This document shows positions 19,275 through 35,912 of a DNA stretch of 35,912 nucleotides, piece after piece (position 1 is the first letter of the stretch; every line of letters starts with the position of its first letter). The DNA lies in assembly GCA_016223045.1 (NCBI GenBank), contig JACRPT010000097.1, positions 1 through 35,912 on the forward strand, given 5' to 3'. This DNA comes from Candidatus Eiseniibacteriota bacterium. GTDB lineage: Bacteria > Eisenbacteria > RBG-16-71-46. A program made the position numbers and the translations under genes. Below the pieces are notes generated by a model. It did no database searches. It worked only from the letters and a program-made list of their open reading frames with translations, and had not been told where the DNA came from.

Positions 19275-20348
19275 TCAGGCGTCGTCCGCCTCTGGGTCGT
19301 GCGCACCCGGGTCGGCGCGCAGGACGCCGTGCCGGCTCATCAGCCGCTTGAAATTGGGTCGCGTCATGCCCGCGAGGCGGGCGGCAGCGCTCACGGTGCG
19401 GACAGTCCGCAGGCAGAGCAGCACCGCCTCGCGCTGTCCTTCCTCTTTGGCGGCATGCAGAATGGCGTCCCGGGGAAGTGCGTCCCGGGGCAGGTCTGAT
19501 GCGACGATCTCCGCCCGGTCTCTGGCGCGTTGCGCCGCCCGCCACAGCACACCCTGCAGCTCACGCACGTTGCCCTGCCAGTCGCGCTCCATCAAGTTTC
19601 GCAAGGCGTCGGGCCCGAGCCGCTTCGCGGGTCGCGGAGGTGTGAGCCCGTCGGGCGCGAAGGCGCGCGCGCACAACCCCGGGATGTCCTCGACGCGCTC
19701 GCGGAGTGGAGGCACGGCGATCACACGCACGGGCTCCTGCGGATTCACACGGCGCCACTCGAGCCCTGCGCGGCCCGCCCACACCCGGCGCCACTCGCAC
19801 AGCGTGCGCCTGGCGAGGTGCCTGCCGCTGCCACTTTCGCCGTGCACGTAGGTCGTGGCGCAGGACTCGGCCGCGGGGCGCAGCTCGTCGAGGAAGCGCT
19901 GGGTGCGCGTAGAAGCAGCGCACCAGGCGGAGGCGTCGGCTGAGCCTGGTTCTGGCCAGGCCGGCAGTTCGGGCGCGCGGGCGTTCACGAGCGTGCACAG
20001 CGTGCAGCGCAGCTCGTCGAGGAACCCGGCTGGCCGGGCGTCGAGCGCGGCTTGCGCGTGCGCAGTGCGGGCCGCTTCCTGCGCCAGACCGCCGCTGAAG
20101 TAGGAGGTGTACAGCACGCGTGCCGCTCGTTCGGCCAGCATGACCGCGCCGCGGAGCACGGTGAAGCCCGTTCCGTCGCTCGCGAGATCGAAGTCCACGG
20201 CGACTGCGGCCCAGCCCCCGACCGAGAGCGCGCGCAACGCCTGATCCGCGCTGCACGCCACCTCGCAGGCGAAGTCCCGCTGCAGCGCATACACGATGGT
20301 GGCAGCGCGGTCGCTGTCGTCGTCCACAACCAGGACTCGGGGCCTCAC
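19275..20348 (-). CDS. Response regulator with degenerate AAA+ domain and Fis-type HTH
   Basis: The 357-residue protein has an NtrC-like layout with the motor removed. Residues 1-120 form a receiver (VLVVDDDSD; acceptor Asp52 or Asp54 in AVDFDLASDG), but the conserved KP near the end is replaced by ARPAGF. Residues 165-265 keep Walker-A-like GESGSGRH (Lys replaced by Arg), PPLRERVEDIP and WQGNVREL, yet only about 35 residues separate the first two. The GAFTGA loop, Walker B and arginine-finger region are therefore gone. A Fis-type HTH follows (SAAARLAGMTRPNFKRLMSRHGV). It should bind DNA but cannot act as a sigma-54 ATPase. The GTG start at 20348, with GGAGG seven bases upstream, overlaps the kinase stop (GTGA), so the two are translationally coupled. 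Confidence 0.88.
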   Translation of the reverse strand: MRPRVLVVDDDSDRAATIVYALQRDFACEVACSADQALRALSVGGWAAVAVDFDLASDGTGFTVLRGAVMLAERAARVLYTSYFSGGLAQEAARTAHAQAALDARPAGFLDELRCTLCTLVNARAPELPAWPEPGSADASAWCAASTRTQRFLDELRPAAESCATTYVHGESGSGRHLARRTLCEWRRVWAGRAGLEWRRVNPQEPVRVIAVPPLRERVEDIPGLCARAFAPDGLTPPRPAKRLGPDALRNLMERDWQGNVRELQGVLWRAAQRARDRAEIVASDLPRDALPRDAILHAAKEEGQREAVLLCLRTVRTVSAAARLAGMTRPNFKRLMSRHGVLRADPGAHDPEADDA

Positions 20349-22663
20349 CGCGTCGCCTCCTTCGGTACAGGTCGCGTCTCGGCGTTTTCCTCGTCGAACG
20401 GGAAGAGCACGCGCAGCATGAGCTTCATCATCGTGCCCGTACCCTCGGGTGAATCCTCGATGGATAACTCCCCGCGCCACCGGCGCGCCGTTTCGCGGGC
20501 GTGGGGGAGGCCGAATCCACCGCCGGGCCGCGTGGAGCAGTCGGGCCGGAATACGGCCTCACGCCGATCGTGCGGAATGCCAGGGCCGTTGTCGGCGACG
20601 AGCAGCACCACCCAGCGGTGGTCGAGCGGGTCACGAAGCACGCTGACCTGCAGGGTCGCCCCCGGCACGCCGTGCAGCGCCTCCGCCGCGTTCTCTACGA
20701 GCTGGCCCGCCAGCTCGCGCAATTCGGCGGGGTCGAAGAGCACGTGGGCGCCACCGCCCGGATCGCCGGAGAAGTGGGCGGTCACCCCGCGCTCCACAAG
20801 CAGGCGCTGCTTGGCGAGCATCGCATCGTGTGCCGCGATGTCGGCGCGGCAGCGCAGATGGCTGGCGACATCACGCCAGACGGCTGCGCACGCGTCAGAG
20901 AGCCCCTGCATCGCCGCCGACAGTTCGCGGGCGCGGTGCCCGTCCGGCGGCTCCGGGTGGCTCAGCCCCTCCTGCAGGGCGCGGGTCAGGTCTTCGATCT
21001 CCCGCACGCGGGCGGGCTCGACCGCGAGCTCTGCGGCACGCGCGGTGAACCGACACAACGCGCCCGCGCCGATCCGCACGAACTCGTCGCGCGCCCGCTC
21101 GAAGACATCGAGGGGGACCGTCTGCCCGTCCACGGTGCGCTGCGCCCACAGCCGCAGCGCACCGAAGGGCCGCACTTCCTCGAGCACTTCATGCCGGACT
21201 TGGAGGTAGTCCACGAGGAAATCGCGCGATTCCGCCGGCGTGGGCAGGCGACGGCGGCGGCGCTCGCGGCGCACGACACCGGCAGCAGTACCTGCTGCGA
21301 GCGCCGCGCCCAACACCCACGCAAGGCGGCGAGGGTCGCGTAGCGGCGACACGGGGATCAGGTCCATCGCCAGCGCACGCTGCCCGACGGCGCACACGCG
21401 CCACCGTTGCAAACCGGCCCGCGCAGGGAGGAGACGCGTCGGAGGCCCGGCTGCATTCTCGTGCCTCCGACGTCCCATGACCCTGAGGTTGCTGTCCAGC
21501 ACCAGGACATCCCGCGCCGTTGAGGCGAGCACCTCGTTGGCGCCGTCGCCGTCCACGTCCACGCAGGCCCATGCCTCGACCGCCGAGGGTTCGCCATGCG
21601 TGGCCAGCGGCTTCAAGTCACGGTTGAAGAGGCGCAGCACGCCGTCCGCCCCGCCCACGACGAAGCGCCCGGCCGCACCGTCGAGGACGCGCGGCTGGCC
21701 GAGGCCGCGGGGAAAGGACAGGCTGCGAATCTCGGCGCCGCTCGCGCCGTCGAGCACCGCGAGCCCGCAGCGCTCCGGGTTCGCGCCGCGGTGGCTGCTC
21801 GCCGCGACCACCACCCTTGCCGGGTGCCCCGGCTCACCCGGCAGCGCCGCGCCCTTCGCCTCGGTGAACCCACCCGCCAGCTCCCGCAACCAGAGCCTGC
21901 GGCCTTCCCCCGAGAGCGCGAGCACGTACGCGTGCGCGTCGTCAGTGCCATTCTCGCTCACTCCATTCGCGGGTGAAGACGTGGTGACGAGCAGCCCCGG
22001 GCGGCCGTCGCCGCGCAAGTCCGCCACGACCACGCCGTGGGGCCAGCCTCCCATCGCGTAGAACCACTCGCGCCCGCCGCTCGCCGGGTCGTAGCACGCG
22101 ATTCCGCGCGGTCCCTTCCAGACCCCACATACGAGACAGACCACGGCCGGCCCACGCCCGGGCCGGGGCAGCATCGCCACCGGGCGCAGCCAGCCCACCC
22201 AGGGTCTTCCGCGCGCGGGTGCGCCGGCGACGGGGCCGAGAGTGTCGCTCTTCATCCCGTCGCGGCTCATCAAGATCGCTCGCGTGGTGCCGTCACCATC
22301 GCGCGTCGTGACGCACACCTCGTCGAAGCCGTCGCCGTTCACGTCGAGCGCGGCTTCGACCATCGCTGGCCCTGTGAGGTTCTGCTGCCAGACCGCGCGG
22401 CATTCACCCTCCAAGAGGCGCGCGAGAACCACCTGCGAGCTGTCGCCGATGGCGAAATCGTCCACGCTGTTGCCGAGGGCATTGACGGGTGCCACGGAGA
22501 CGGGACGCGGCGCCAGCCCGACCGCTCGGAAGGCGACCCGTGGAGAGAGGCGGGAGAGCAGGCCCAGACCCGCGGCGCCCATGAGGGCGGCCGCCGCAGC
22601 GGAATACAAGAGGCTCCGGGGGCTCAGGAGGCGACCCAGGGGGTGCGGGGGCACGTGCGGCAC
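20345..22663 (-). CDS. Membrane histidine kinase-like protein with extracytoplasmic beta-propeller sensor
   Basis: This 772-residue protein has a membrane segment at about residues 17-37. A long extracytoplasmic region to about residue 445 contains FG-GAP/VCBS-like repeats with Ca2+-type loops (DVNGDGFDEV, DLRGDGRPGL, DVDGDGANEV) typical of beta-propellers. A second membrane segment is at about 450-470, followed by an Arg-rich stop-transfer stretch. The cytoplasmic part ends in a HATPase_c domain with N box LVENAAEALHG, G1 DNGPGIPHD and G2 GGGFGLPHA. I find no HisKA phospho-acceptor box (HExxNPL); candidate histidines are scattered in the helical linker. It starts with GTG. It probably senses a ligand outside the inner membrane and signals to the overlapping regulator gene, but phosphotransfer is unproven. 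Confidence 0.85.
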   Translation of the reverse strand: MPHVPPHPLGRLLSPRSLLYSAAAAALMGAAGLGLLSRLSPRVAFRAVGLAPRPVSVAPVNALGNSVDDFAIGDSSQVVLARLLEGECRAVWQQNLTGPAMVEAALDVNGDGFDEVCVTTRDGDGTTRAILMSRDGMKSDTLGPVAGAPARGRPWVGWLRPVAMLPRPGRGPAVVCLVCGVWKGPRGIACYDPASGGREWFYAMGGWPHGVVVADLRGDGRPGLLVTTSSPANGVSENGTDDAHAYVLALSGEGRRLWLRELAGGFTEAKGAALPGEPGHPARVVVAASSHRGANPERCGLAVLDGASGAEIRSLSFPRGLGQPRVLDGAAGRFVVGGADGVLRLFNRDLKPLATHGEPSAVEAWACVDVDGDGANEVLASTARDVLVLDSNLRVMGRRRHENAAGPPTRLLPARAGLQRWRVCAVGQRALAMDLIPVSPLRDPRRLAWVLGAALAAGTAAGVVRRERRRRRLPTPAESRDFLVDYLQVRHEVLEEVRPFGALRLWAQRTVDGQTVPLDVFERARDEFVRIGAGALCRFTARAAELAVEPARVREIEDLTRALQEGLSHPEPPDGHRARELSAAMQGLSDACAAVWRDVASHLRCRADIAAHDAMLAKQRLLVERGVTAHFSGDPGGGAHVLFDPAELRELAGQLVENAAEALHGVPGATLQVSVLRDPLDHRWVVLLVADNGPGIPHDRREAVFRPDCSTRPGGGFGLPHARETARRWRGELSIEDSPEGTGTMMKLMLRVLFPFDEENAETRPVPKEATR

Positions 22664-22870
22664 CCGGGCATGCTACCGCAGGCGGTCCGGCGGGAGAATC
22701 GGGCTCCCTGACCCGACGGAGGAATCCGTTTCAGCGCAACGCGATGCCAGCCGCGTCGATGATCAATCTTTTCGATGTGAAGGCTTGTCGTCCGGCGGGC
22801 TGCCGCCCCCTGCGGCTCCAAGATGAGTCCTCCCTCTGCGTCGCGTCGGAGCGGTATCGATGGGAAGCAT
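22664..22870. other. Intergenic, kinase leader to transposase remnant
   Basis: About 200 bp without a credible gene. It must hold the minus-strand promoter of the kinase operon, but no confident -35/-10 pair is visible; TAGCAT close to the GTG start is the only candidate. Local AT content is slightly higher near 22750-22790. Confidence 0.35.
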
Positions 22871-35172: not shown

Positions 35173-35721
35173 ATGGAAATGAAGCCTTCGCTCAACCTGA
35201 CGCTCCGCCCGGCGCTCATCATGACGCCGCGCCTGCAGCAGGCGTTGAAGCTGCTGCAGGTGCCGACGCTCGCGCTCCAGCAGATCCACAAGCAGGAGAT
35301 CATGCAGAATCCCCTGCTCGAGGAGGTGGACGACCGCACCGACAGCGAGGACCTGGCCAAGGAGGACTCGCCGGAGGAGAAGGCGAACCAGGAGGCCGAG
35401 GACCCGGCCGAAGAGGATCCGATCGACTGGTCGGAGTACATGCAGGACGGCGCCTTCGACCGCGCCTACATCCCGCAGCAGGAGACCGCGACGGAATTCC
35501 TCGAGCGCGTGCCGGTCACGCGCACCACGCTGGCCGAGAGCCTGCTCGAGCAGCTCCACTTCCTGAACCTGCCGGAGCGCGAGCTGGCGCTGGCCGAGTT
35601 CATCGTCGGATCGCTCGACGACCGCGGCTACCTGGCGACGCCGCTCGAGGAGGTGGCGCAGGCCACCGGGGCGGACCCCGGCCTGTGCGAGCGCCTGCTC
35701 CGGGTCATCCGAACCTTCGAC
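35173..35721 (+). CDS. rpoN: RNA polymerase sigma-54 factor, truncated at a chimeric junction
   Basis: RpoN recognises -24/-12 promoters such as the one at 2980 and needs activators such as the NtrC-type protein at 1394. Region I is clear ([51 protein letters not shown]). The acidic region II follows ([30 protein letters not shown]) and the core-binding region begins ([31 protein letters not shown]). After LRVIRTFD the family continues with P-P-G-V-G-A-R, but the sequence here changes to unrelated codons that read as TopA on the other strand. Only about 183 of the usual 450-500 residues remain. The frame stays open to the window end, but that part is not RpoN. GGGGAG precedes the ATG. Confidence 0.93.
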
Positions 35722-35912
35722 GTACGCCTTCAAGAAGCCAGGAAAACGCGTCGTGCGCCCGCTGCTGCGGAACTGCGCATCCTAGACCGCGATGTCGACC
35801 GTCGTTTGCTCGACTTGCGCATCGACCATCTGGCTGGCGACCGTCCGCTTCCAGATCAGCTCATACAGCCGGCTCGCGTCGCGCCCCATGGCGTGCTCGA
35901 CTTGGGGCATGC
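35722..35912 (-). pseudogene. topA: DNA topoisomerase I (topA) internal fragment with in-frame stop
   Basis: On the minus strand from the window end the sequence reads GRDASRLYELIWKRTVASQM, a stop (TAG at 35784-35782), then [34 protein letters not shown] and FPGFLKAY are hallmark segments of the type IA topoisomerase TopA after the active-site domain. The similarity may continue to about 35698 (VEGSDDPE), overlapping rpoN codons in antisense. It has no proper start or end, carries a stop, and lies in a context where rpoN should continue. It is best explained as a joined foreign or distant fragment. Confidence 0.75.

Follow-up and report, generated by a model that had tools for sequence, protein, structure and literature searches.

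A motorless NtrC-like response regulator family in two genera of Candidatus Eiseniibacteriota

What becomes of an NtrC-like response regulator when the core of its AAA+ domain is missing: an eroding activator or a regulator of a different kind? The question is raised by a gene on contig JACRPT010000097.1 of a Candidatus Eiseniibacteriota assembly (GCA_016223045.1), of which the window, i.e., the whole stretch of DNA analyzed here, covers 35,912 nucleotides. An initial annotation, made from the sequence alone, regarded the product as a sigma-54-type activator converted into a probably functional, non-ATPase DNA-binding regulator. The gene, here termed C66, has an open frame on the reverse strand from a GTG start at 20348 to a stop codon at 19275–19277. 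Its parts are:

19275–20348, reverse strand: motorless NtrC-like response regulator C66, 357 aa, GTG start (reading frame and translation; architecture common to four homologues)
19995–20348, reverse strand: receiver domain, residues 1–118 (alignment and residue table)
19794–19856, reverse strand: Walker A relic and next helix, residues 165–185 (sequence, alignment and residue table)
19725–19793, reverse strand: deletion junction, residues 186–208 (about 100 extra residues here in other sigma-54 enhancer-binding proteins, bEBPs)
19479–19724, reverse strand: PPLRER strand and AAA+ lid, residues 209–290 (AAA_lid_14, structural model and Foldseek)
19308–19478, reverse strand: linker and Fis-type helix-turn-helix (HTH), residues 291–347 (structural model and Foldseek match to Fis)

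The extent of the loss can be read from the spacing of the remaining motifs. Between GESGSGRH (residues 170–177), the degraded Walker A of the initial annotation, and PPLRERVEDIP, which begins at residue 213, exactly 35 residues were counted, as had been estimated. From the GExG motif to the PxLRxR strand, C66 has 43 residues. In a comparison set of 76 further bEBPs, drawn from related genomes and from viral contigs, this distance is 106–149 (median 141), two short family members also caught by the pattern being kept out of the set; about 100 residues are therefore missing from C66. No segment corresponding to GAFTGA, Walker B or the arginine fingers is present, in line with the original claim, and given the order of motifs along the AAA+ domain, the missing residues are those predicted to carry the GAFTGA loop, Walker B, sensor I and the arginine fingers. 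Profile searches gave a similar picture: AAA_lid_14 was the only Pfam family above cut-off (residues 216–293, E 2.4e-11), neither Pfam sigma-54 activator family was reported for C66 at E up to 1, and NCBIfam returned weak partial matches to sigma-54 regulators (ZraR, PEP_resp_reg), all far under cut-off. Some bEBP-like proteins of viral contigs (L131, L134, L135, L136, L139 and L141) keep Walker A and Walker B, apparently miss the GAFTGA loop, and have 106–111 residues from GExG to PPLR.

The deletion is not private to this gene. A homologue search in 59 genomes yielded four more full-length proteins, all with the deletion of C66: C2 and C140 from the same genome (G000), and C103 and C216 from a genome of another genus of the same family (G010), with C103 as the cross-genus orthologue of C66 (48% identity). 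All five lack the same GAFTGA-to-arginine-finger segment, have 40–57 residues between GExG and PxLRxR, and contain AAA_lid_14 (Pfam). The Walker A lysine is present in two members and replaced by R, R and V in the other three, while the sensor-II arginine is kept in three and is V or I in two. With Walker B missing, none of the five members would be expected to hydrolyze ATP, and from the missing motifs we infer that ATPase function has been lost. When aligned to a HMMER profile of the family, longer bEBPs matched in two stretches (about 1–182 and 203–340) and the five short proteins in one. In a tree of the lid-HTH region (48 rows; 50 were extracted and two dropped beforehand), the five members form one clade with 100/100 support, within which the cross-genus pairs C66/C103 (98/86) and C2/C216 (94/91) are recovered. 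Each pair spans two genera, so that, barring an exchange of copies from one genus to the other, the deletion is older than both the duplication and the separation of the genera.

Selection on these genes is purifying. For C66/C103, dN/dS is about 0.41 overall (0.30–0.53), with 0.31 in the receiver, 0.34 in the lid, 0.36 in the HTH and 0.70 (0.30–1.44) at the junction; for C2/C216 it is 0.59 overall, 0.76 (0.49–1.15) in the receiver, 0.55 in the lid and 0.14 (0.04–0.33) in the HTH, the most strongly constrained part. All values come from a simple Nei-Gojobori-type calculation with Jukes-Cantor correction and, as the genes are diverged and rich in G+C, are crude and indicative only. The initial annotation had reasoned that orthologues with full AAA+ domains would expose C66 as a recent deletion pseudogene; instead, the shared deletion, the single clade and purifying selection rule out a recent pseudogene, and five independent loci in two genomes rule out an assembly artefact. 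A slower decay, in which an activator killed by the deletion persists as gradually eroding copies, is disfavored. It would account for the degenerate Walker A and receiver, the near-neutral C2/C216 receiver, and a third-position G+C of 0.84–0.85 in the operon of C66 and its upstream kinase gene (19275–22663) versus mostly 0.92–0.98 in surrounding genes, which may also mean that the operon is lowly expressed or acquired. However, five open frames, cross-genus orthologues, constraint on the receiver, lid and HTH of C66/C103 and the strongly constrained C2/C216 HTH make such a relic very improbable.

The family seems narrowly distributed. A profile search of 47 genomes of the phylum at E 1e-22 recovered the same five proteins, carried by two of these genomes, besides three longer frames of other genomes that matched over lid and HTH. 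One wider genome-contig scan gave a single match, a bEBP with a full AAA+ domain, and a first viral-contig scan returned no family member; two other phyla, sampled with 4 and 40 genomes, yielded nothing at E 1e-30 and 1e-26, respectively, a result that shows little. In these searches, no close sister clade retaining the complete AAA+ domain was found.

What remains of the protein beyond the junction retains a recognizable fold. A single-sequence model of the whole protein was unusable (mean pLDDT 42.6), which leaves the Walker A relic and junction without structural support. Residues 205–357, modelled with 29 pieces of other bEBPs, reached a mean pLDDT of 87.3, so that the structure prediction proposed at the outset succeeded for this part and failed for the entire chain; only this region was modelled with an alignment because MAFFT misplaced the deletion once longer bEBPs were added. 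The best Foldseek matches of the model were NtrX (5m7n, E 2.5e-5), ZraR (1ojl) and FleQ, and the HTH matched E. coli Fis (1ety) with 1.1 Å over 48 columns. Among the best full-length matches the rmsd is high, which reflects either a flexible linker or a lid and HTH that are placed differently relative to each other; it does not favor any one arrangement. The excision would spare strand 1, the P-loop, helix 1, strand 5 and the lid. Since strands 1 and 5 are neighbors in the sheet of the AAA+ fold, the remnant could plausibly still fold into a small core that, together with the lid, acts as a spacer or as a surface for dimerization.

At the opposite end of the protein, the description of receiver and HTH as intact holds for the HTH only: the receiver is divergent, with a sub-threshold match to Pfam Response_reg (E 0.084). 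It retains the acidic pair D9 and D10, the phospho-Asp D52 and T81 at the Thr/Ser position. The canonical conserved lysine, reported missing at first inspection, is indeed replaced by an aspartate (D103, T81 + 22), as it is in five of five members. Loss of this lysine usually impairs phosphorylation-driven switching, and with a Lys-less receiver, the C66 switch may be atypical. The partner of C66, noted in the initial annotation as a coupled kinase, is:

20345–22663, reverse strand: sensor histidine kinase, 772 aa (FG-GAP propeller and HATPase_c; two transmembrane stretches, by eye)

The kinase gene lies directly upstream of C66, and the two overlap by 4 bases (20345–20348). Its product matches FG-GAP_3 (E 2.1e-7) and HATPase_c (E 1.8e-13) in Pfam, and its DHp region gave no Pfam family match. 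An FG-GAP kinase gene is directly upstream at three of the five loci (C66, C2 and C103); in G010 it is split into two parts that end at the ends of contigs C117 and C103. Alignment of the three homologues revealed a conserved His as well as N, G1 and G2 boxes (boxes read by eye). A RH[E/D]...RPF motif is conserved in all three and suggests an unusual phosphoacceptor helix, with H491 (codon 21191–21193) as candidate phosphoacceptor. Three other genomes encode related kinases (L047, L048 and L050) next to regulators of 475–478 aa, and a further one in the genome of C66 (L051) adjoins a 488-aa regulator, lengths that derive from frame-G+C gene calls; at L049, in a fourth genome, the caller listed no gene. 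Comparison of the neighbors of the family copies identified none that is conserved except the kinase, and no common target genes.

The remaining members, C140 and C216, have no FG-GAP kinase alongside, and a search for a kinase remnant beside C216 found none. Where the kinase gene of this orphan would be expected, there is a short frame whose stop codon runs into the regulator start (ATGA, by eye; L027, 5731–5810, reverse strand). The acidic pair, D52 and T/S81 are kept in all three kinase-paired receivers. One orphan receiver carries D10V and T81A and the other D52N, a pattern that, among five proteins, fits loss of phosphorylation along with the kinase. The orphans are probably phosphorylation-independent DNA binders. 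The same could hold for the entire family if the kinase bound the Lys-less receiver without phosphotransfer, or if the receiver were a constitutive dimer. The invariant aspartate in place of lysine and the orphans, which retain the HTH while losing phosphorylation residues, are consistent with such a switch; retention of the acidic pair, D52 and T/S81 in every kinase-paired member and of the nucleotide-binding motifs in the kinase argues against it. We give this scenario a modest chance, as a variant of our main reading with which its probability overlaps.

Our main reading, which we consider likely, is that C66 represents a lineage-specific, non-ATPase DNA-binding two-component regulator derived from a sigma-54 bEBP and acting at ordinary sigma-70-type promoters. 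Its basis is the old shared deletion, frames that are open and under purifying selection, a kinase partner for three of five members, and the fold of lid and HTH; phosphorylation, DNA binding and promoter type of C66 we infer. In this mechanism, a sigma-54 enhancer-binding ancestor would have permanently lost its ATPase. The membrane kinase with its FG-GAP propeller probably phosphorylates D52, which probably shifts the dimer state of the receiver and hence DNA binding by the Fis-type HTH, and C66 would then activate or repress sigma-70-type promoters in the ordinary way, perhaps its own among them.

Alternatively, C66 might still modulate sigma-54 regulation without an ATPase, either by competing with intact bEBPs of the same cell for enhancer sites or, via its lid and HTH, as their dominant-negative or co-assembly partner. 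Its genome contains an rpoN gene and, among 24 Sigma54_activat matches listed, 19 that are strong (E 2.7e-56 or better), and the lid is kept in five of five members. Yet the residues of the ring interface (arginine fingers, GAFTGA) are gone, and the stem of the lid-HTH clade is long, at 1.01 changes per column, with no intact bEBP of the tree as close partner. We regard this role as improbable. As to the sigma factor itself, the window ends in the N-terminal part of an rpoN-like (sigma-54) gene (35173–35910, by eye), cut by the contig edge, and a Sigma54_DBD match is located on contig C5 of the same genome.

Hints at sigma-70-type transcription of the operon itself come from the region upstream of the kinase:

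22670–22675, reverse strand: TAGCAT, a hexamer resembling a -10 box, 6 bases ahead of the GTG of the kinase gene (a leaderless start of sigma-70 type is predicted)

TAGnnT occurs 6 bases before the GTG of all three kinase genes (C66, C2 and G010 loci), which are homologous, so that these are not three independent events. The looser TAnnnT is found 6–7 bases before the start of 9 of 93 called genes, three of them these kinases (6 of the 90 others). The hexamer is an indirect hint at leaderless transcription of the kinase operon. A second potential control element, 62 nt long, lies upstream of the C2 kinase (L024, 3080–3141, forward strand) and of the orphan C216 regulator (L027, 6083–6144, reverse strand). 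Its copies share an identical 23-base core and an identical run of 28 bases, with unconserved flanks (about 30% identical), and are capable of forming a hairpin. Both genomes hold a single copy each; allowing three mismatches or fewer, none turned up in the other 18 genomes of the taxonomic family. A covariance model placed the element in 2 of 47 genomes of the phylum, and an Rfam search gave no match. It is a candidate operator or RNA leader. Within the window, no clear copy accompanies C66, so the element does not bear directly on this gene.

Regulators that combine a receiver with a Fis-type HTH and lack an ATPase are familiar from the two-component systems RegA, PrrA and ActR. C66 resembles these in its endpoints but differs in the AAA+ lid and Walker A relic between them; by its architecture, the family is set apart as bEBP-derived via internal deletion. 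With intact NtrC, ZraR and NtrX it shares lid and HTH in sequence and fold, without the catalytic core. Several bEBPs without GAFTGA are reported to act at sigma-70 promoters, and TyrR, DhaR, HupR, VpsR and the NtrC proteins of Rhodobacter capsulatus and Caulobacter have lost sigma-54 activation, the last with an eight-residue deletion at the GAFTGA loop (PMC3162934, PMC10274813; Caulobacter deletion, PMC10274813). The C66 family is like these proteins in its NtrC-type ancestry, lid, Fis-type HTH and absent or changed GAFTGA. They keep most of the AAA+ domain with changes or deletions at the GAFTGA loop, whereas the C66 family is without about 100 residues including Walker B, such that, judged by motif content, its loss is deeper than in TyrR, HupR and VpsR: the catalytic half is gone. 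No response regulator with an AAA+ excision this large was met in the literature surveyed, which included few subscription journals.

A fuller scenario, which we propose only tentatively, is that one old excision removed the outer half of the AAA+ sheet and left the remainder (strand 1, P-loop, helix, strand 5 and lid) as a nucleotide-independent coupler between the HTH and a receiver with an invariant Asp in place of Lys. Duplication would then have given rise to switches paired with a kinase and to orphan, phosphorylation-independent DNA binders, and one branch or more would have carried its own upstream 62-nt element along as self-recognition site. For the annotation of related genomes, the family illustrates that an "NtrC family" label from a lid or HTH match does not imply sigma-54 control. 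Its five members provide natural constructs for studying the role of the bEBP lid and P-loop remnant without ATP hydrolysis. More generally, they indicate that one internal excision can turn an ATP-dependent activator into an ordinary DNA-binding regulator, and that the product can be maintained, undergo duplication and diverge into forms with a coupled kinase and orphan ones.
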